From NCBI GenBank assembly GCA_013297655.1, contig JAAFHV010000031.1, positions 1-51,014 on the forward strand: 51,014 nucleotides of DNA, read 5' to 3'. Positions 5,514 to 26,959 of the stretch are shown piece after piece. A program made the translations under genes and the position numbers. Under the pieces are notes generated by a model. It saw nothing but the letters and a program-made list of their open reading frames with translations, was not told the DNA's origin and did not search any database. How positions within the stretch are numbered: the stretch's first letter is position 1; each line of letters opens with the position of its first letter. Source of the DNA: Myxococcales bacterium (GTDB lineage: Bacteria; Myxococcota_A; Polyangia; Polyangiales; Polyangiaceae).

Positions 5514-6197
5514 GTGCAACCCTATCTCCCCCACGTGCTACTTCCCTCCACTCAATACGGGTCTCGTGCCTCGTTCGAGCAGAGCCTCGTGTACGCTTGT
5601 GAACATTGTGGGAAGCCGAAGCGTGCCATCGTTCGTGGTTACGGTTTCGGGTACGCGACCGTCCCGCTCGACATCGACGGAGGAAATGTGGGCGGAAGGC
5701 GACGGGCCGCTCATGGCGCGAGCTCGTCGGCCCAGTCGCAGCTCCAATGGGTCCTCGCCCTGACGAAGTGTCCGCGTTGCTCCCGCCCTAGCCTATGGGC
5801 CGAGGAAAAGGCCAACGAGGACGCGGCGCGGGCAAAAACACGCTACCGACTGATGGCCTGGGTGCCGCTCCTCACCGGGGCGGTCGTGGTCTTCATGGCC
5901 TCCATGTCGAACCTCTCGACGTCCGGAGATATCGGCTCACCGAGCACCCTCGCGACGATCGCCTTGGCGGCAGCGATCGTCGCGTTCGCGACCCTCGTCA
6001 TCCCACACGGCGGCACGCCCGCGATCACCGCCGAGGTGCTCTTTTTCCCCGACGAGGGCGACGAGCCGGCGGCGGGCCAGGTGCGCGCAGAGCTCGCCGT
6101 GCGGCCCGGTTATGGCTCGGCATACGGGGCGGCCGCCCTCGGTTTCCTCGCCGTCATCGTGCTTTGCGGAGCGCTCGTCCTCGCGATCCGTCCGTGA
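5514..6197 (+). CDS. Zinc-ribbon membrane protein, unknown function
   Basis: The frame is open far upstream, but protein-like sequence begins near GTG 5514 (VQPYLPHVLLPSTQYGS), so I start there and give about 227 residues. Two CxxC pairs, 'CEHCGK' and 'CPRCSR', about 70 residues apart, probably bind one zinc. They are followed by a two-helix membrane hairpin (LMAWVPLLTGAVVVFMASM; LATIALAAAIVAFATLVIP), a beta-rich segment and a last membrane helix (AAALGFLAVIVLCGALVLAI). Probably an inner-membrane protein with a cytoplasmic metal-binding head. The start is uncertain. No functional context. Confidence 0.55.
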   Translation: MQPYLPHVLLPSTQYGSRASFEQSLVYACEHCGKPKRAIVRGYGFGYATVPLDIDGGNVGGRRRAAHGASSSAQSQLQWVLALTKCPRCSRPSLWAEEKANEDAARAKTRYRLMAWVPLLTGAVVVFMASMSNLSTSGDIGSPSTLATIALAAAIVAFATLVIPHGGTPAITAEVLFFPDEGDEPAAGQVRAELAVRPGYGSAYGAAALGFLAVIVLCGALVLAIRP

Positions 6198-6378
6198 ATC
6201 CAATGGTCCCGCAGCGCATCACACGGCGCGCACCCGACCGTGAGATCTCACGAAGCGAAACGCGGAAACAAGACTGTATCCAAGAGTAAGGCTCTCCTTG
6301 CCTCGGAGCTATCGCGTGGCGACACTCCGCTCCACATCCCTTTACCGCAACACGAACGTACGCTACGTCGCCTCCACG

Positions 6379-22960: not shown

Positions 22961-23021
22961 AGTCGCGGCAGTGCACGCGCGTCGGAGCGCGTTCGCGGGG
23001 CCATTTTGCTACTCTCCGCCC

Positions 23022-23513
23022 GTGCCCGCTCCGACGATTCGTGTCTGCTTCGTGTGCACCGGAAACATCTGCCGCTCGCCCACGGCGGAGGGCATCTTCA
23101 AGCGGCTCGTCGCCGACGCGGGGCTCGCGCACACCTTCCACGTCGAGAGCGCGGGCATCGACTCGTATCACGTCGGCGAGCGACCCGACCCACGCACCCT
23201 CCGCGCGGCCGAGGCGCGGGGGTACCGCCTCGATGGCCGCGCCCAACAATGGAAGGTGCGCGACTTCGACCGGTTCGACTACGTCGTCGCGATGGACCGA
23301 ACGCACGTCGGCTCGCTCGGTCGGCTCGCCACGAGCGAAGCAACGAGAGCGAAGATCTCGCTCGCGCGCGATCACGTCGCCGAAGGGCCACGCGACCTCG
23401 ACGTGCCCGATCCGTACTACGGCGAGCGCGAGGGCTTCGACGAGTGCGTCGACATCTGCCTCGCGGCCTGCACCGCGCTCCTCGCCCGTATTCGAAAAGA
23501 CCACGCGTTGTGA
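23022..23513 (+). CDS. Low-molecular-weight protein tyrosine phosphatase
   Basis: A 163-residue protein starting at GTG 23022. The catalytic P-loop 'CTGNICRS' (Cys12, Arg18) gives the C-x5-R-S signature, and the general acid Asp130 is present in 'DVPDPYYG'. 'DYVVAMDRTH' is another family landmark. It hydrolyses phosphotyrosine or small phosphate esters in the cytoplasm. The GTG is favoured because it places the P-loop at the usual position. Its TGA overlaps the GTG start of the next gene (GTGA), so phosphatase and kinase-like protein are co-translated. Confidence 0.92.
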   Translation: MPAPTIRVCFVCTGNICRSPTAEGIFKRLVADAGLAHTFHVESAGIDSYHVGERPDPRTLRAAEARGYRLDGRAQQWKVRDFDRFDYVVAMDRTHVGSLGRLATSEATRAKISLARDHVAEGPRDLDVPDPYYGEREGFDECVDICLAACTALLARIRKDHAL

Positions 23514-24337
23514 CCTTCGCCGACGAGCTCGAACGCGCGCTCGGGTCGCGCCCGCGAGACCCTTCCTCGCCGAGCGCCGGCGTGGTGGAGCTCCGCGACG
23601 GACGCCGCGTCTTCGTGAAGGCCCCGCGCGACTCACGCGCGCACGCGATGGTCGCCGCGGAGGAGCACGGGCTCGAATTCCTCCGCGGCCATAGCGAGCT
23701 GCGAGTCCCCGACGTGCTCGCGCGCGGCACCGATTTCCTCGTGCTCGAGGCGCTCGATCTTCGACCGCTCGAGGGCCCTTCTGCCGAGCGCTTCGGCCAC
23801 GCCCTCGCCGAGCTGCACCGAAGCGGCGCCCCGTCGTTCGGACTCGATCGCGACAATTTCATCGGCCTCACCGAGCAGCGCAACGAGCCCCATGCGCGCT
23901 GGGCCGACTTCTACCGCGACGAGCGCATCCTCGCCGTCGCCGCGCGCGCCAACCTCGAGCGCAGCACACGCGCCCTCGTCGATGCAGTCGCGAACAAGAT
24001 GGACGTTCTCGTCGGCGACGAGGAGCCCCCCGCGCGTCTTCACGGCGATCTCTGGTCCGGCAACGCCTGCGCCGACGCGAGAGGGGTCCCGTGTGTGTTC
24101 GATCCTGCCGTCTCGGGAGGCTCCCGCGAGCTCGACCTCGCGATGATGCGTCTCTTCGGAGGCTTTCCGCGCCGCACCTTCGACGCCTACGAAGAGAGCT
24201 TCCAGCTCTTACCCGGCCACGCCGATCGCGGCGCGCTCTATCAGCTCTATTTCTTGCTCGTCCACGTCGCGATCTTCGGAGAAGGCTACCAAGCCCAAAC
24301 CGACCGCTGTTTGCGCCGCATCCTAGAGAAGCACTAA
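23510..24337 (+). CDS. Fructosamine kinase family protein
   Basis: A 275-residue protein of the fructosamine/ketosamine-3-kinase family. N-lobe 'GGVVELRDGRRVFVK'-like strand with Lys, 'VPDVLARGTDFLVLEAL', then the phosphotransferase loop 'ARLHGDLWSGNACAD' and 'CVFDPAVSGGSRELDLAMM' carrying the metal-binding Asp. It phosphorylates sugar adducts on protein amines so that they fall off (deglycation). In bacteria it is commonly paired with a low-MW tyrosine phosphatase, as here, so the pair probably acts in one repair pathway. GTG 23510 overlaps the phosphatase stop. Confidence 0.88.
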   Translation: MTFADELERALGSRPRDPSSPSAGVVELRDGRRVFVKAPRDSRAHAMVAAEEHGLEFLRGHSELRVPDVLARGTDFLVLEALDLRPLEGPSAERFGHALAELHRSGAPSFGLDRDNFIGLTEQRNEPHARWADFYRDERILAVAARANLERSTRALVDAVANKMDVLVGDEEPPARLHGDLWSGNACADARGVPCVFDPAVSGGSRELDLAMMRLFGGFPRRTFDAYEESFQLLPGHADRGALYQLYFLLVHVAIFGEGYQAQTDRCLRRILEKH

Positions 24338-24413
24338 TCCGCAAACGCACCCTACCAAATCCGCCCCCGTGCAAGCCGCAAGACGCCGGTCTCGCAACCG
24401 CATCAAGCCGATC

Positions 24414-24480
24414 CTCTCTTCTCTCTTCTCTCTTCTCTCTTCTCTCTTCTCTCTTCTCTCTTCTCTCTTCTCTCTCTCTC
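24414..24480. repeat. Heptanucleotide microsatellite (CTCTCTT)8 plus (CT)n
   Basis: Eight perfect copies of CTCTCTT (24414-24469) followed by an 11-base CT run. It lies 77 bp after the fructosamine kinase-like stop in a non-coding stretch between convergent genes. The strand is pure pyrimidine for 67 bases, able to form triplex (H-DNA) and prone to slippage. Confidence 0.95.
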
Positions 24481-24525
24481 GTCCTTGCGACGAGACGTCT
24501 CTGGGTTGAGGGGTTCGGCACGGGG

Positions 24526-24675
24526 GCGGCTTTGGGATTGGGGGGTGGGGGGGTCCTGTGTCTGAGGCGAGTGCGTATGTTTGGGCTGGAAATACCCTCT
24601 GCGTCTCGCATGGACTTCGAAGAGCCTGTCAGCCGCCGAGTCCGGGGGGGACCCACCCCCCAATCCCAAAGCCGC
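24526..24675. repeat. Inverted repeat with 24-bp perfect G-rich arms
   Basis: The left arm at 24526-24549 begins GCGGCTTTGGGATTGGGG and ends GGTGGG. The right arm at 24652-24675 is its exact reverse complement over 24 bp. The arms are 102 bp apart. The left arm runs into further Gs, so the top strand has GGG-ATT-GGGGGG-T-GGGGGGG, a G-quadruplex-prone sequence. The unit may be a small non-autonomous mobile element or a genome-wide intergenic repeat; no transposase or target duplication was recognised. Confidence 0.75.
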
Positions 24676-24924
24676 ACCGGTGACGGCCCCGGCCTACCTG
24701 TCCGTGGTCTCTGGCTGGTCCCACACGCCCCACGCCCAAATCCAAGTCTTTCAGGCCCCGCCGCCCCACAGCCGTGTGCGCGCCGCGCACAAAAAACCAT
24801 GCCCCCGCGGGCCCCTTCCCGATGGTCCCGAGACTTCCGTTGGCGTCGTGCCGGAACGGACTCCCCACGACGCCCGCCTCGAGGGCACGTGTACGGGGCG
24901 AGACCGGAGCCACAAAAAGGACAG

Positions 24925-24956
24925 CCGCGGCACACCTGACGGTGCACCGCGGTTTT
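24925..24956. terminator. Bidirectional terminator hairpin
   Basis: CCGCGGCACACC (24925-24936) pairs with GGTGCACCGCGG (24941-24952) at 10 of 12 positions, with a 4-base loop, followed by TTTT on the plus strand. On the minus strand the same hairpin is followed after seven bases by TTTTT. It lies 19 bp beyond the stop of the minus-strand VWA gene and so can end transcription from both convergent sides. Confidence 0.6.
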
Positions 24957-24975
24957 CGTTCGAGGTCGACGCGAG

Positions 24976-26694
24976 TCACTTCGCCACGGCGATCCCCACG
25001 TTGGTCGCCGGCCGTTGCCCCGAGAGCTGCGCCGCCTTGTTCACGAGACCCACCAGCTCGAGCCGCTCCGCGCGCCCCTGGCTCGCGTCGTTCGCGATGC
25101 GGGCGACTTGGTCGAGACGCCACTCCGCAGCGAGGGGGCTCTTGCGGAGCACCTCGGCGAGCCCCACCACCGCGGTCGCGAAACGGAAGTCCGCCGAGGC
25201 CGACTCGAAGGTGCGCGCGATGCTGGTCGCGGGCATCGGGAAGACGCTCTCCTCCGCGCGCTCGCTGCCGGTCGGCGTCTTGTGGCGCACCCGCACGGTG
25301 ACGGGAGATTTGTCGGTCCGCGTGAGCACCACGTCGTAGAGGGCGGTCACGGTGTGGCCAGAGCCGACCTCACCGGCGTCGACCTTGTCGTTGCGGAAAT
25401 CGCGGTCCTTGATGTCGCGGTTCTCGTAGCCGAGGAGGCGGTAGGTGCGCACCACGCTCGGATCGAGCTCGACCTGGATTTTCACGTCGCGCGCGATCAC
25501 CTGGAGGAGGCCGTCGACCTGCTCGCCGAACACGCGCCGCGATTGCTCCTCCGAGTCGATGTAGCTGTAGTTGCCGTCGCCGGAGTCGGCGAGCGCCTCC
25601 ATCGTGGCGTCCTTGTAGTTGCCGGAGCCGAAGCCGACGGTGCTGAGGGTGATGCCCTCGCCGCGGTGGCCGTGGATGATCTTCTTGAGCTCCTCTTGGG
25701 AAGCGCGGCCCACGTTCGCGTCGCCGTCGGAGAGCACGACCACGCGGTTCACGTGGGTCTTCACGAGGGTTTTCTTCGCGAGCTCGTAGGCCATCGCGAG
25801 GCCGTCGCCCATCGCGGTCGACCCGCCGGCGCGGAGGCGCTCGATCGCGGCGAGGATGCGGTCTTTGTGCTCGATGCTGGTCGGATCGAGGATCTTTTCG
25901 ACGCCGCCGGCATACGTGCAGATCGCGACCGTGTCGCCGCGCTGGAGCTTGTCGGTGAGCACCTTGAGGCTCTTTTTTGCGAGCTCCATGCGATCGGCGC
26001 CGCCCATCGAGCCGCTCGTGTCGACGAGGTAAACGAGGTGGACCGGCACTCGCTCCGCGCCTTGCACCTTCTTGCCCTGGAGGCCCACGCGGAGGAGGTG
26101 GTGGCCCGGGGTGAACGGCGAGGGTGCCGCGTCGGTGTAGACTGCAAACGGTTTCTGCGTGGGCGCTTCGTAGCCGTAGCGGAAGTAGTTCACGTACTCC
26201 TCGACGCGGACCGAGGCGAAGGGCGGCAAGGTGCCCTCGTTCAGCTTGCGGCGCGAGATCGTGTACGAGGCGGTGTCGACGTCGATCGCGAAGGTGCTCA
26301 GGCGATCCTTCGAGGTATCCACGGTCGGGTTCACGCCGTGGTCTTGGTAGTGCTCGGTGCCGGTCGGCTCGGCGGGGGCGCCGGCGATCGTGGCGACCGG
26401 TTGGCTCTGCGCGACGGGGGCGGGCATCCCGGGGATCCCGGGCATCGGAGGGGCCGGGGGGGCCGGCACGGCGCCCGGGTTCACCTGGTACGTCGGCGCC
26501 CCGGCCGGCTGCGGCGCTTGGGGGTAGGCCTGCTGCTCCGGGTACCCGGCCGCGGGGTAGTCCTTCGTGCTCGCGACGGCCTCGGGGGCCCGCGCAGCGT
26601 GGTCCATCGTCCCGCCCGCGCCACATCCGACGAGGCCCGCGGCGAGCGGAACGAGCACGAAACAAGCGGACAGGGCGGCGCGGGACCTTCGCAT
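24976..26694 (-). CDS. VWA domain lipoprotein, YfbK-like
   Basis: A 572-residue lipoprotein; ATG 26694 has a good AGGAG at 6-7 bases. Lipobox LVGC with Cys24, a Pro/Ala/Gly-rich linker (residues 45-110), then the YfbK-type N-terminal VWF domain ('DRLSTFAIDVDTASYTISRR', 'VRVEEYVNYFRYGY'), a von Willebrand A domain with MIDAS 'DTSGSMGG' (Asp225, Ser227, Ser229), Thr and Asp partners ('GGSTAMGDGL', 'VVVLSDGDANVG'), and the C-terminal DUF3520-like part ending 'ATNVGIAVAK'. It probably binds a ligand through a metal at the membrane surface. Single gene, divergent from the acyl-reductase megaenzyme. Confidence 0.88.
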   Translation of the reverse strand: MRRSRAALSACFVLVPLAAGLVGCGAGGTMDHAARAPEAVASTKDYPAAGYPEQQAYPQAPQPAGAPTYQVNPGAVPAPPAPPMPGIPGMPAPVAQSQPVATIAGAPAEPTGTEHYQDHGVNPTVDTSKDRLSTFAIDVDTASYTISRRKLNEGTLPPFASVRVEEYVNYFRYGYEAPTQKPFAVYTDAAPSPFTPGHHLLRVGLQGKKVQGAERVPVHLVYLVDTSGSMGGADRMELAKKSLKVLTDKLQRGDTVAICTYAGGVEKILDPTSIEHKDRILAAIERLRAGGSTAMGDGLAMAYELAKKTLVKTHVNRVVVLSDGDANVGRASQEELKKIIHGHRGEGITLSTVGFGSGNYKDATMEALADSGDGNYSYIDSEEQSRRVFGEQVDGLLQVIARDVKIQVELDPSVVRTYRLLGYENRDIKDRDFRNDKVDAGEVGSGHTVTALYDVVLTRTDKSPVTVRVRHKTPTGSERAEESVFPMPATSIARTFESASADFRFATAVVGLAEVLRKSPLAAEWRLDQVARIANDASQGRAERLELVGLVNKAAQLSGQRPATNVGIAVAK

Positions 26695-26959
26695 GAGACT
26701 CTCCTCTGCGCGCTCGCGACCGGCCACCACCTCGGTGTCTCGGAGCTGCGCGGGTTGTGGGGGTCCGAACGAGGGCTCGGTTCGGCGCTTACACTCGCCG
26801 CGAAGATTTCCTTTTTACGGAACATCTAGACTCGGTGCGTTGCGGGATTCGCACCGGCGGCCCGTATTTTCCTGGGGTTCGGTTGAAGGAAGGGGGTGCC
26901 TGTTGTAGGTACGGCCGAGCCCTGTCGCCTCGTTTTCCGAGCGCCGGCTCCCCCCAGCC
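26695..26959. promoter_or_regulatory. Divergent promoter region (VWA lipoprotein / lipid megaenzyme)
   Basis: 265 bases between divergent starts must carry both promoters. A locally AT-richer patch (gaagatttcctttttacgg, 26801-26819) and a TTGCGG...TATTTT pair (about 26838-26874, spacing slightly long) are the best candidates, but neither is convincing. No operator-like dyad was found. Confidence 0.35.

Follow-up and report, generated by a model that had tools for sequence, protein, structure and literature searches.

The 51,014-nt stretch of DNA analysed here (hereafter the window; contig C235 of the 9.9-Mb, 546-contig assembly of a Myxococcales bacterium) carries a conspicuous palindrome in the space between two genes, and the question that this locus raises is whether such a structure marks the ends of a small mobile element or does its work as a folded single strand. 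Judging from the comparison of related copies, we consider it fairly probable that the feature belongs to a family of dispersed palindromes that is restricted to one lineage and would act through its folded top strand, most likely as RNA.

The palindrome and its copies in one genome

A previous sequence-only reading had drawn attention to a pair of perfect 24-bp inverted arms, and positions 24526-24549 and 24652-24675 are indeed exact reverse complements separated by 102 bp. The observation is correct but does not go far enough: these arms form the inner part of a longer, imperfect inverted repeat that encloses them (Table 1). Folded as single-stranded DNA, positions 24515-24690 reach -55.1 kcal/mol as opposed to -35.7 kcal/mol (sd 3.0) for dinucleotide shuffles, which corresponds to a z of -6.5, and none of 200 shuffles folds equally well. 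An 18-nt segment further upstream (24355-24372) is 94% complementary to 24518-24535 and represents an alternative partner for the 5' arm.

Table 1. Features of the palindrome and its surroundings (positions in the window)
Feature	Position	Strand	Remarks
Fructosamine kinase domain gene, upstream	23006..24337	+	Pfam PF03881, E 4e-64; true start inside frame
Poly-pyrimidine tract, CTCTCTT x 9.7 (7-bp unit)	24414..24480	+	directly 5' of hairpin; TRF
Outer helix, 5' arm	24511..24549	+	39 nt; 87% complementary to 24652-24690
Perfect arm of the sequence-only reading (24 bp)	24526..24549	+	exact match to opposite arm
Core, 5' half TCCTGTGTCTGAG: C-stem 5' strand CCTG, TGTCT, GAG	24554..24566	+	(near-)invariant in alignment A3
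Apical region, variable	24567..24636	+	first pairs, 24566-24569 with 24634-24637, covary
Core, 3' half CGAGTCCGGGGGGGA	24637..24651	+	alignment A3
Outer helix, 3' arm	24652..24690	+	39 nt
Small G+C hairpin GTGCGC-GCC-GCGCAC, then AAAAAA	24776..24790	+	sequence; alignment of 11 copies
Von Willebrand A / YfbK-like gene, downstream, convergent	24976..26730	-	Pfam PF12034, PF12450, PF00092

The palindrome is not confined to this locus. A BLAST search of the own genome with positions 24500-24700 returned 19 matches, made up of 11 distinct places plus arm-against-arm matches of the same copies, and the inner 16-mer GTCCTGTGTYTGAGGC occurs exactly at 16 places in the 9.9 Mb, a copy number that is more than chance: the reversed-pattern control gave none at up to one mismatch, and 3 and 2 at up to two mismatches. 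A covariance model (R1), built from an alignment of 20 copies from five genomes (A3), finds 18 matches in the own genome with E no higher than 2.6e-4 and a further two with E of about 0.02; this count of about 20 is a lower bound, because several copies are cut by contig ends. The description of the feature as a palindromic intergenic repeat unit was therefore well chosen, in that it is dispersed in some 20 copies of mostly intergenic location. Its immediate surroundings are partly shared as well, since variable pyrimidine tracts also lie 5' of the other own-genome copies displayed with enough flank, and the 3' tail (the small G+C hairpin followed by A's) is common to the other own-genome copies, being altered in one of the 11 aligned. 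Two loci depart from the simple arrangement: the copy on contig C366 is without its 5' arm, and on contig C163 of the own genome (G000; L094, ~6134-6337) two hairpin units are joined head to head into a composite palindrome.

A further proposal, that the top strand could form a quadruplex and the bottom strand an i-motif, holds for the window copy as far as its G runs are concerned: the + strand has a pattern of quadruplex type from 24522 onwards, and the - strand has none within 24501-24700. The emphasis on it did not survive comparison, since only 8 of 58 copies show such a pattern on the + strand and one shows it on the - strand. The quadruplex was thus ruled out as a conserved property, and what is conserved instead is a hairpin with an internal-loop core.

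Distribution and architecture of the hairpin family

Detection of the family beyond the own genome depends on the search employed. DNA similarity at E 0.001 found matches in none of 38 relatives besides the own genome, a two-part core pattern found 5 of the order's 183 genomes (own genome included; reversed-pattern control 0), and model R1 found related hairpins in 17 of the 183, Sorangium-like genomes among them, with six of six genomes of the group g15 and four of six of g20 as carriers. A wider model, R2, applied to 188 genomes sampled across the phylum, recovered two, the own genome and G080, both of the same order. Within the genome_contigs collection the two-part pattern with strict gaps gave no match and a looser pattern gave five stretches from two myxobacterial MAG assemblies, titled Myxococcales bacterium and Proteobacteria bacterium. 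Carriers other than the own genome, with its approximately 20 copies, hold one to eight each. The sequence-only reading would have been contradicted by a sequence unique in its genome and missing from relatives, and the element is neither.

A phage origin was rejected, as the 13 exact 16-mer matches in viral_contigs come without the other core half and two-part patterns number 0 there. Rfam (4227 families), scanned with window positions 24300-25000 and 13 loci, yields no family at the gathering cut-off; sub-threshold matches are to eukaryotic miRNA hairpins only, plus one tRNA in a flank. Searches of the open-access literature on myxobacterial and Sorangium palindromic repeats, MITEs and small or noncoding RNA turned up no paper listed as describing the element, which is weak evidence of absence, and the same holds for the portions seen of PMC8632094, PMC3733652 and PMC10434271, which contain nothing on it. 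The hairpins are apparently an uncatalogued, lineage-restricted family, of which the structured core is new and the kind, dispersed bacterial palindrome, is already known.

All copies displayed fold as one long hairpin, and the intact ones follow a single plan in which a long outer helix is followed by a near-invariant bipartite core and a variable apical helix, the whole unit measuring about 130-200 nt. The sequence of the outer helix is completely different between genomes, and the apical region varies in length between 5 bp capped by a triloop and about 29 bp; G034, G051, G105, G080, G124 and G103 possess a second internal loop farther out. The core consensus, by comparison, has CC(TGU-type C-stem)TGTYTGAG as its left part and CGAGTYCGG together with G's as its right part. 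Even within the core the C-stem, as read by eye, changes on both sides, from CCTG/CGGG in the window to CCCG/CGGG in G080 and G124 and CCGA/TCGG in the Sorangium-like genomes, where it also appears lengthened by G-C or A-T. Conservation thus resides in the middle of the unit and not at its ends. Where copies of G034, G051 and G105 were aligned, they are bounded by the foot of the hairpin and their flanks are unrelated.

The combination of free stems, paired arms and a near-constant core suggests that the unit works as a folded single strand, probably RNA. The outer and apical helices, which would need only to pair, may serve to hold a bipartite internal-loop core consisting of the short C-stem (CCTG/CGGG here, CCGA/UCGG in Sorangium-like copies) with a G-rich asymmetric loop outside it and a loop of pyrimidines and tandem G-A inside. 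This core would be the recognised part, either by a host or element-encoded protein or through the RNA's own chemistry, and could amount to a site of recognition or reaction that two helices present, most likely in RNA or else in single-stranded DNA.

Paired change, strand asymmetry and fixed loci

If pairing is what matters, the two arms of a copy should match each other better than the arms of different copies, and this is what we observe. In 21 copies with both arms (of 23 listed), the mean alignment score for arm complementarity is 25.5 within a copy versus 10.4 between copies, and the own partner arm ranks best in 17 of the 21. Cells in which both sides of a pair have changed number 57 in alignment A3, as opposed to 22 after shuffling and no more than 21 when the partners are slid, and 169 versus 64 in A4, an alignment of 54 copies that was fitted to the model; at the first apical pairs both sides are changed in 6 to 10 of 20 sequences.

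The two strands are not equivalent in this respect. The strand test rests on 58 copies, retained from 87 raw core matches after removal of duplicates and weak cores, whose isolated arm mismatches on the top strand comprise 45 G-T, 10 A-C and 28 others (p 2e-6), the own genome contributing 19 G-T and one A-C. Merging similar contexts reduces the imbalance to 20 versus 7 (p 0.019), and p ranges from 0.009 to 0.12 over four merging settings, the weakest being the looser alignment setting (22:12, p 0.12). Since mutation of duplex DNA should give equal numbers of G-T and A-C, the excess is indicative of a top strand that acts in folded, single-stranded form. Compensatory changes and a strand-specific G-U excess (weaker after context merging), the generic hallmarks of a structured RNA, are thus both found. 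The G-T excess alone does not separate RNA from single-stranded DNA, in which G-T is also the better tolerated mismatch, and the asymmetry fits equally an alternative that we regard as rather improbable, namely that the top strand acts as a hairpin in the lagging-strand template, recognised and copied by a single-strand nuclease or transposase in the manner of IS200/IS605 ends and REPs.

Copies that occupy the same locus in several species reveal how the arms change over time. Four g15 genomes, belonging to four species, share one copy within about 10 kb of 89% identical synteny; 8 of its 54 pairs vary, four of them on both sides, with nine G-U cells and one A-C, and the changes pass through G-U states (e.g., C-G, U-G, U-A), while none of the 31 unpaired columns varies. 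An orthologous copy in two Sorangium-like genomes, in 91% identical synteny, varies at 10 of 68 pairs, seven on both sides, and at 4 of 28 unpaired columns. These paired changes at orthologous loci imply that copies persist and stay paired. The g15 copy lies antisense and in frame inside a gene that Pfam identifies as a topoisomerase III-RecQ fusion, with frames open in four of four genomes, so that a + strand RNA there would need its own promoter. In this fusion gene (L220:3297-7304 in G160, and L221-L223) the hairpin is translated antisense in a linker.

A separate observation concerns G162, which, compared with G160 and G161 (one copy each), has some 1.95 kb extra between two copies (L218:4134-6080, two frames), the second copy being without the outer 5' arm. 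The extra segment could be a cassette-like gain or loss by recombination, and it is a sign of copy turnover at this locus.

The genes around the copies bear on a different explanation, namely that the hairpin terminates transcription in both directions, or acts as a barrier at 3' ends, where two genes converge. An automatic gene caller, with frames through the hairpin ignored, assigned both neighbours to 38 of the 58 copies; its own rows give 14 convergent, 12 and 11 co-directional and one divergent, the window being miscalled co-directional, and with the window set to convergent the settings become 15 convergent, 22 co-directional and one divergent. The avoidance of divergent regions (1 of 38), together with Sorangium-like loci in which the hairpin fills the gap between convergent genes, would suit a terminator, but by eye there is no T run after 24690 or after the displayed copies, an invariant asymmetric core is not needed for termination, and in four species one orthologous copy is located within a coding gene, all of which renders this explanation highly improbable. 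Co-directional copies display no preferred orientation (12 same versus 10 opposite after the correction of the window), and a separate scan found frames that appear to be coding on both sides at 3 of 58 copies, which belong to two loci in a single genus. A role as a cis-regulator was rejected on the grounds that the neighbour genes of different copies are unrelated to each other, and no reverse transcriptase, the partner expected of a retron msr-msd, was noticed among the neighbour proteins scanned.

Spread, meaning and comparison with known systems

How the copies multiply bears on the sequence-only suggestion that the arms may be the ends of a small non-autonomous element: the unit does end at the hairpin foot, but no matching transposase was found among the families searched (Y1 and one DDE_5 protein). 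Nor is a target duplication clear by eye in the aligned flanks of the G034, G051 and G105 copies. For the single-stranded DNA alternative, the hairpin nature of the unit is what one would expect; it can also draw on a GTAGG at the 5' foot of 8 of 10 Sorangium-like copies, reminiscent of GTAG-tagged REPs, and on the top strand of six of seven copies, which are co-oriented with the replication fork, falling on the lagging-strand template in three complete Sorangium-like genomes that start at dnaA (G169, G170 and G171) if the terminus lies opposite the origin, a small sample with a one-sided p of 0.06 and too few copies to weigh. The GTAGG foot is, however, absent from all 48 other copies, 15 of the own genome included, and the Y1 transposase that this alternative calls for (PF01797, RAYT) is missing from the own genome and from the four Sorangium-like carriers. 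Over 183 genomes Y1 occurs in 86, that is, in 6 of 17 carriers versus 80 of 166 non-carriers; RAYT/REP mobilisation was rejected on this lack of association.

A classical MITE of a DDE transposon, whose arms would be terminal inverted repeats maintained by the transposase and whose covariation would reflect no more than subfamilies and arm-to-arm conversion, seems distinctly unlikely to us. Terminal inverted repeats, a defining trait of MITEs, are present as the outer arms of each intact copy, copies do multiply within genomes, and on contig C60 of G034 a DDE_5 transposase lies between two copies in inverted orientation, beyond which comes another inverted repeat of 33 nt. Yet this transposase is present in 15 of the 183 genomes, is missing from the own genome and occurs in only four of the 17 carriers (G034, G103, G169 and G170), and was discarded as mobiliser because 13 of 17 carriers lack it; moreover, the conserved part of the unit is central and not terminal, two-sided changes also build up between orthologous fixed copies, and arm conversion would leave the excess of G-T over A-C unexplained. 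The C60 arrangement in itself (L085:117-2303), which holds the DDE_5 gene and, by eye, a small SEC-C-like frame between inverted hairpins, may be an insertion sequence with a hairpin at both ends.

Against our preferred reading, a folded top strand that is most likely RNA, count the weaker G-T excess under the looser alignment setting, the tolerance of G-T in single-stranded DNA, the lack of a preferred orientation among co-directional copies and the antisense position of the g15 copy; in addition, no mobiliser was found and no empty site proved. On this reading we infer that the molecule is RNA, that its core serves for binding or processing and that the copies spread as small non-autonomous units, probably by an enzyme acting in trans. 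As a tentative possibility, we would entertain that these hairpins represent a hitherto undescribed class of structured RNA in bacteria, perhaps a ribozyme or a mobile RNA guided by a protein, in which an invariant two-stranded core lies between helices of arbitrary sequence. Such an RNA would spread in hairpin form among Polyangiales genomes and be kept at fixed loci because its folded top strand is active even when antisense in a gene.

Dispersed bacterial palindromes are usually regarded as selfish elements or as targets of DNA-binding proteins. In this family the ends vary freely and the internal core is fixed, both arms of a given locus change in concert from species to species, and wobble pairs favour one strand. 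The idea that such a palindrome acts in folded, single-stranded form is directly testable in culturable Sorangium, and covariance model R2 provides the means of following the hairpin family.

Among known systems, the GTAG-tagged REPs and REPINs with their RAYT (TnpA-REP) resemble these hairpins in being dispersed, strand-specific palindromes with a hairpin unit, a likeness extended by the GTAG foot of most Sorangium-like copies. Excerpts of PMC3733652 report intragenic REPs in repair genes for the GTAG-REP family, and one hairpin copy here likewise lies within a TopoIII-RecQ gene. REPs differ, however, in being 20-40 bp long and of high copy number, as opposed to about 130-200 nt and few to about 20 copies, and the hairpins have an invariant internal core and no accompanying Y1 in the own genome or the Sorangium-like carriers. 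Rickettsia palindromic elements, which according to passages of PMC10969869 are dispersed, about 150 bp long and able to sit in frame in protein genes, are similar in all three respects, whereas the present hairpins are mostly intergenic and in frame in 3 of 58 cases at two loci, not in many unrelated genes. The Correia/NEMIS, ERIC and RUP MITEs, described in part of the same source as 100-200 bp long, often near gene ends and giving RNA hairpins processed by RNases (PMC10969869), are comparable as dispersed inverted-repeat elements of 100-200 bp. Their termini are conserved, in contrast to the free termini and invariant central core found here, where the searches yielded no cognate transposase.

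Small structured RNA motifs, such as self-cleaving ribozymes and k-turn-like protein sites, place an internal-loop core between free helices. The hairpins have no Rfam match at gathering score, and a canonical kink-turn was rejected by eye, tandem G-A being present but the pairing on the C-stem side not fitting; like those motifs, nonetheless, they possess a bipartite invariant core that joins arbitrary helices, with tandem G-A beside a covarying helix.
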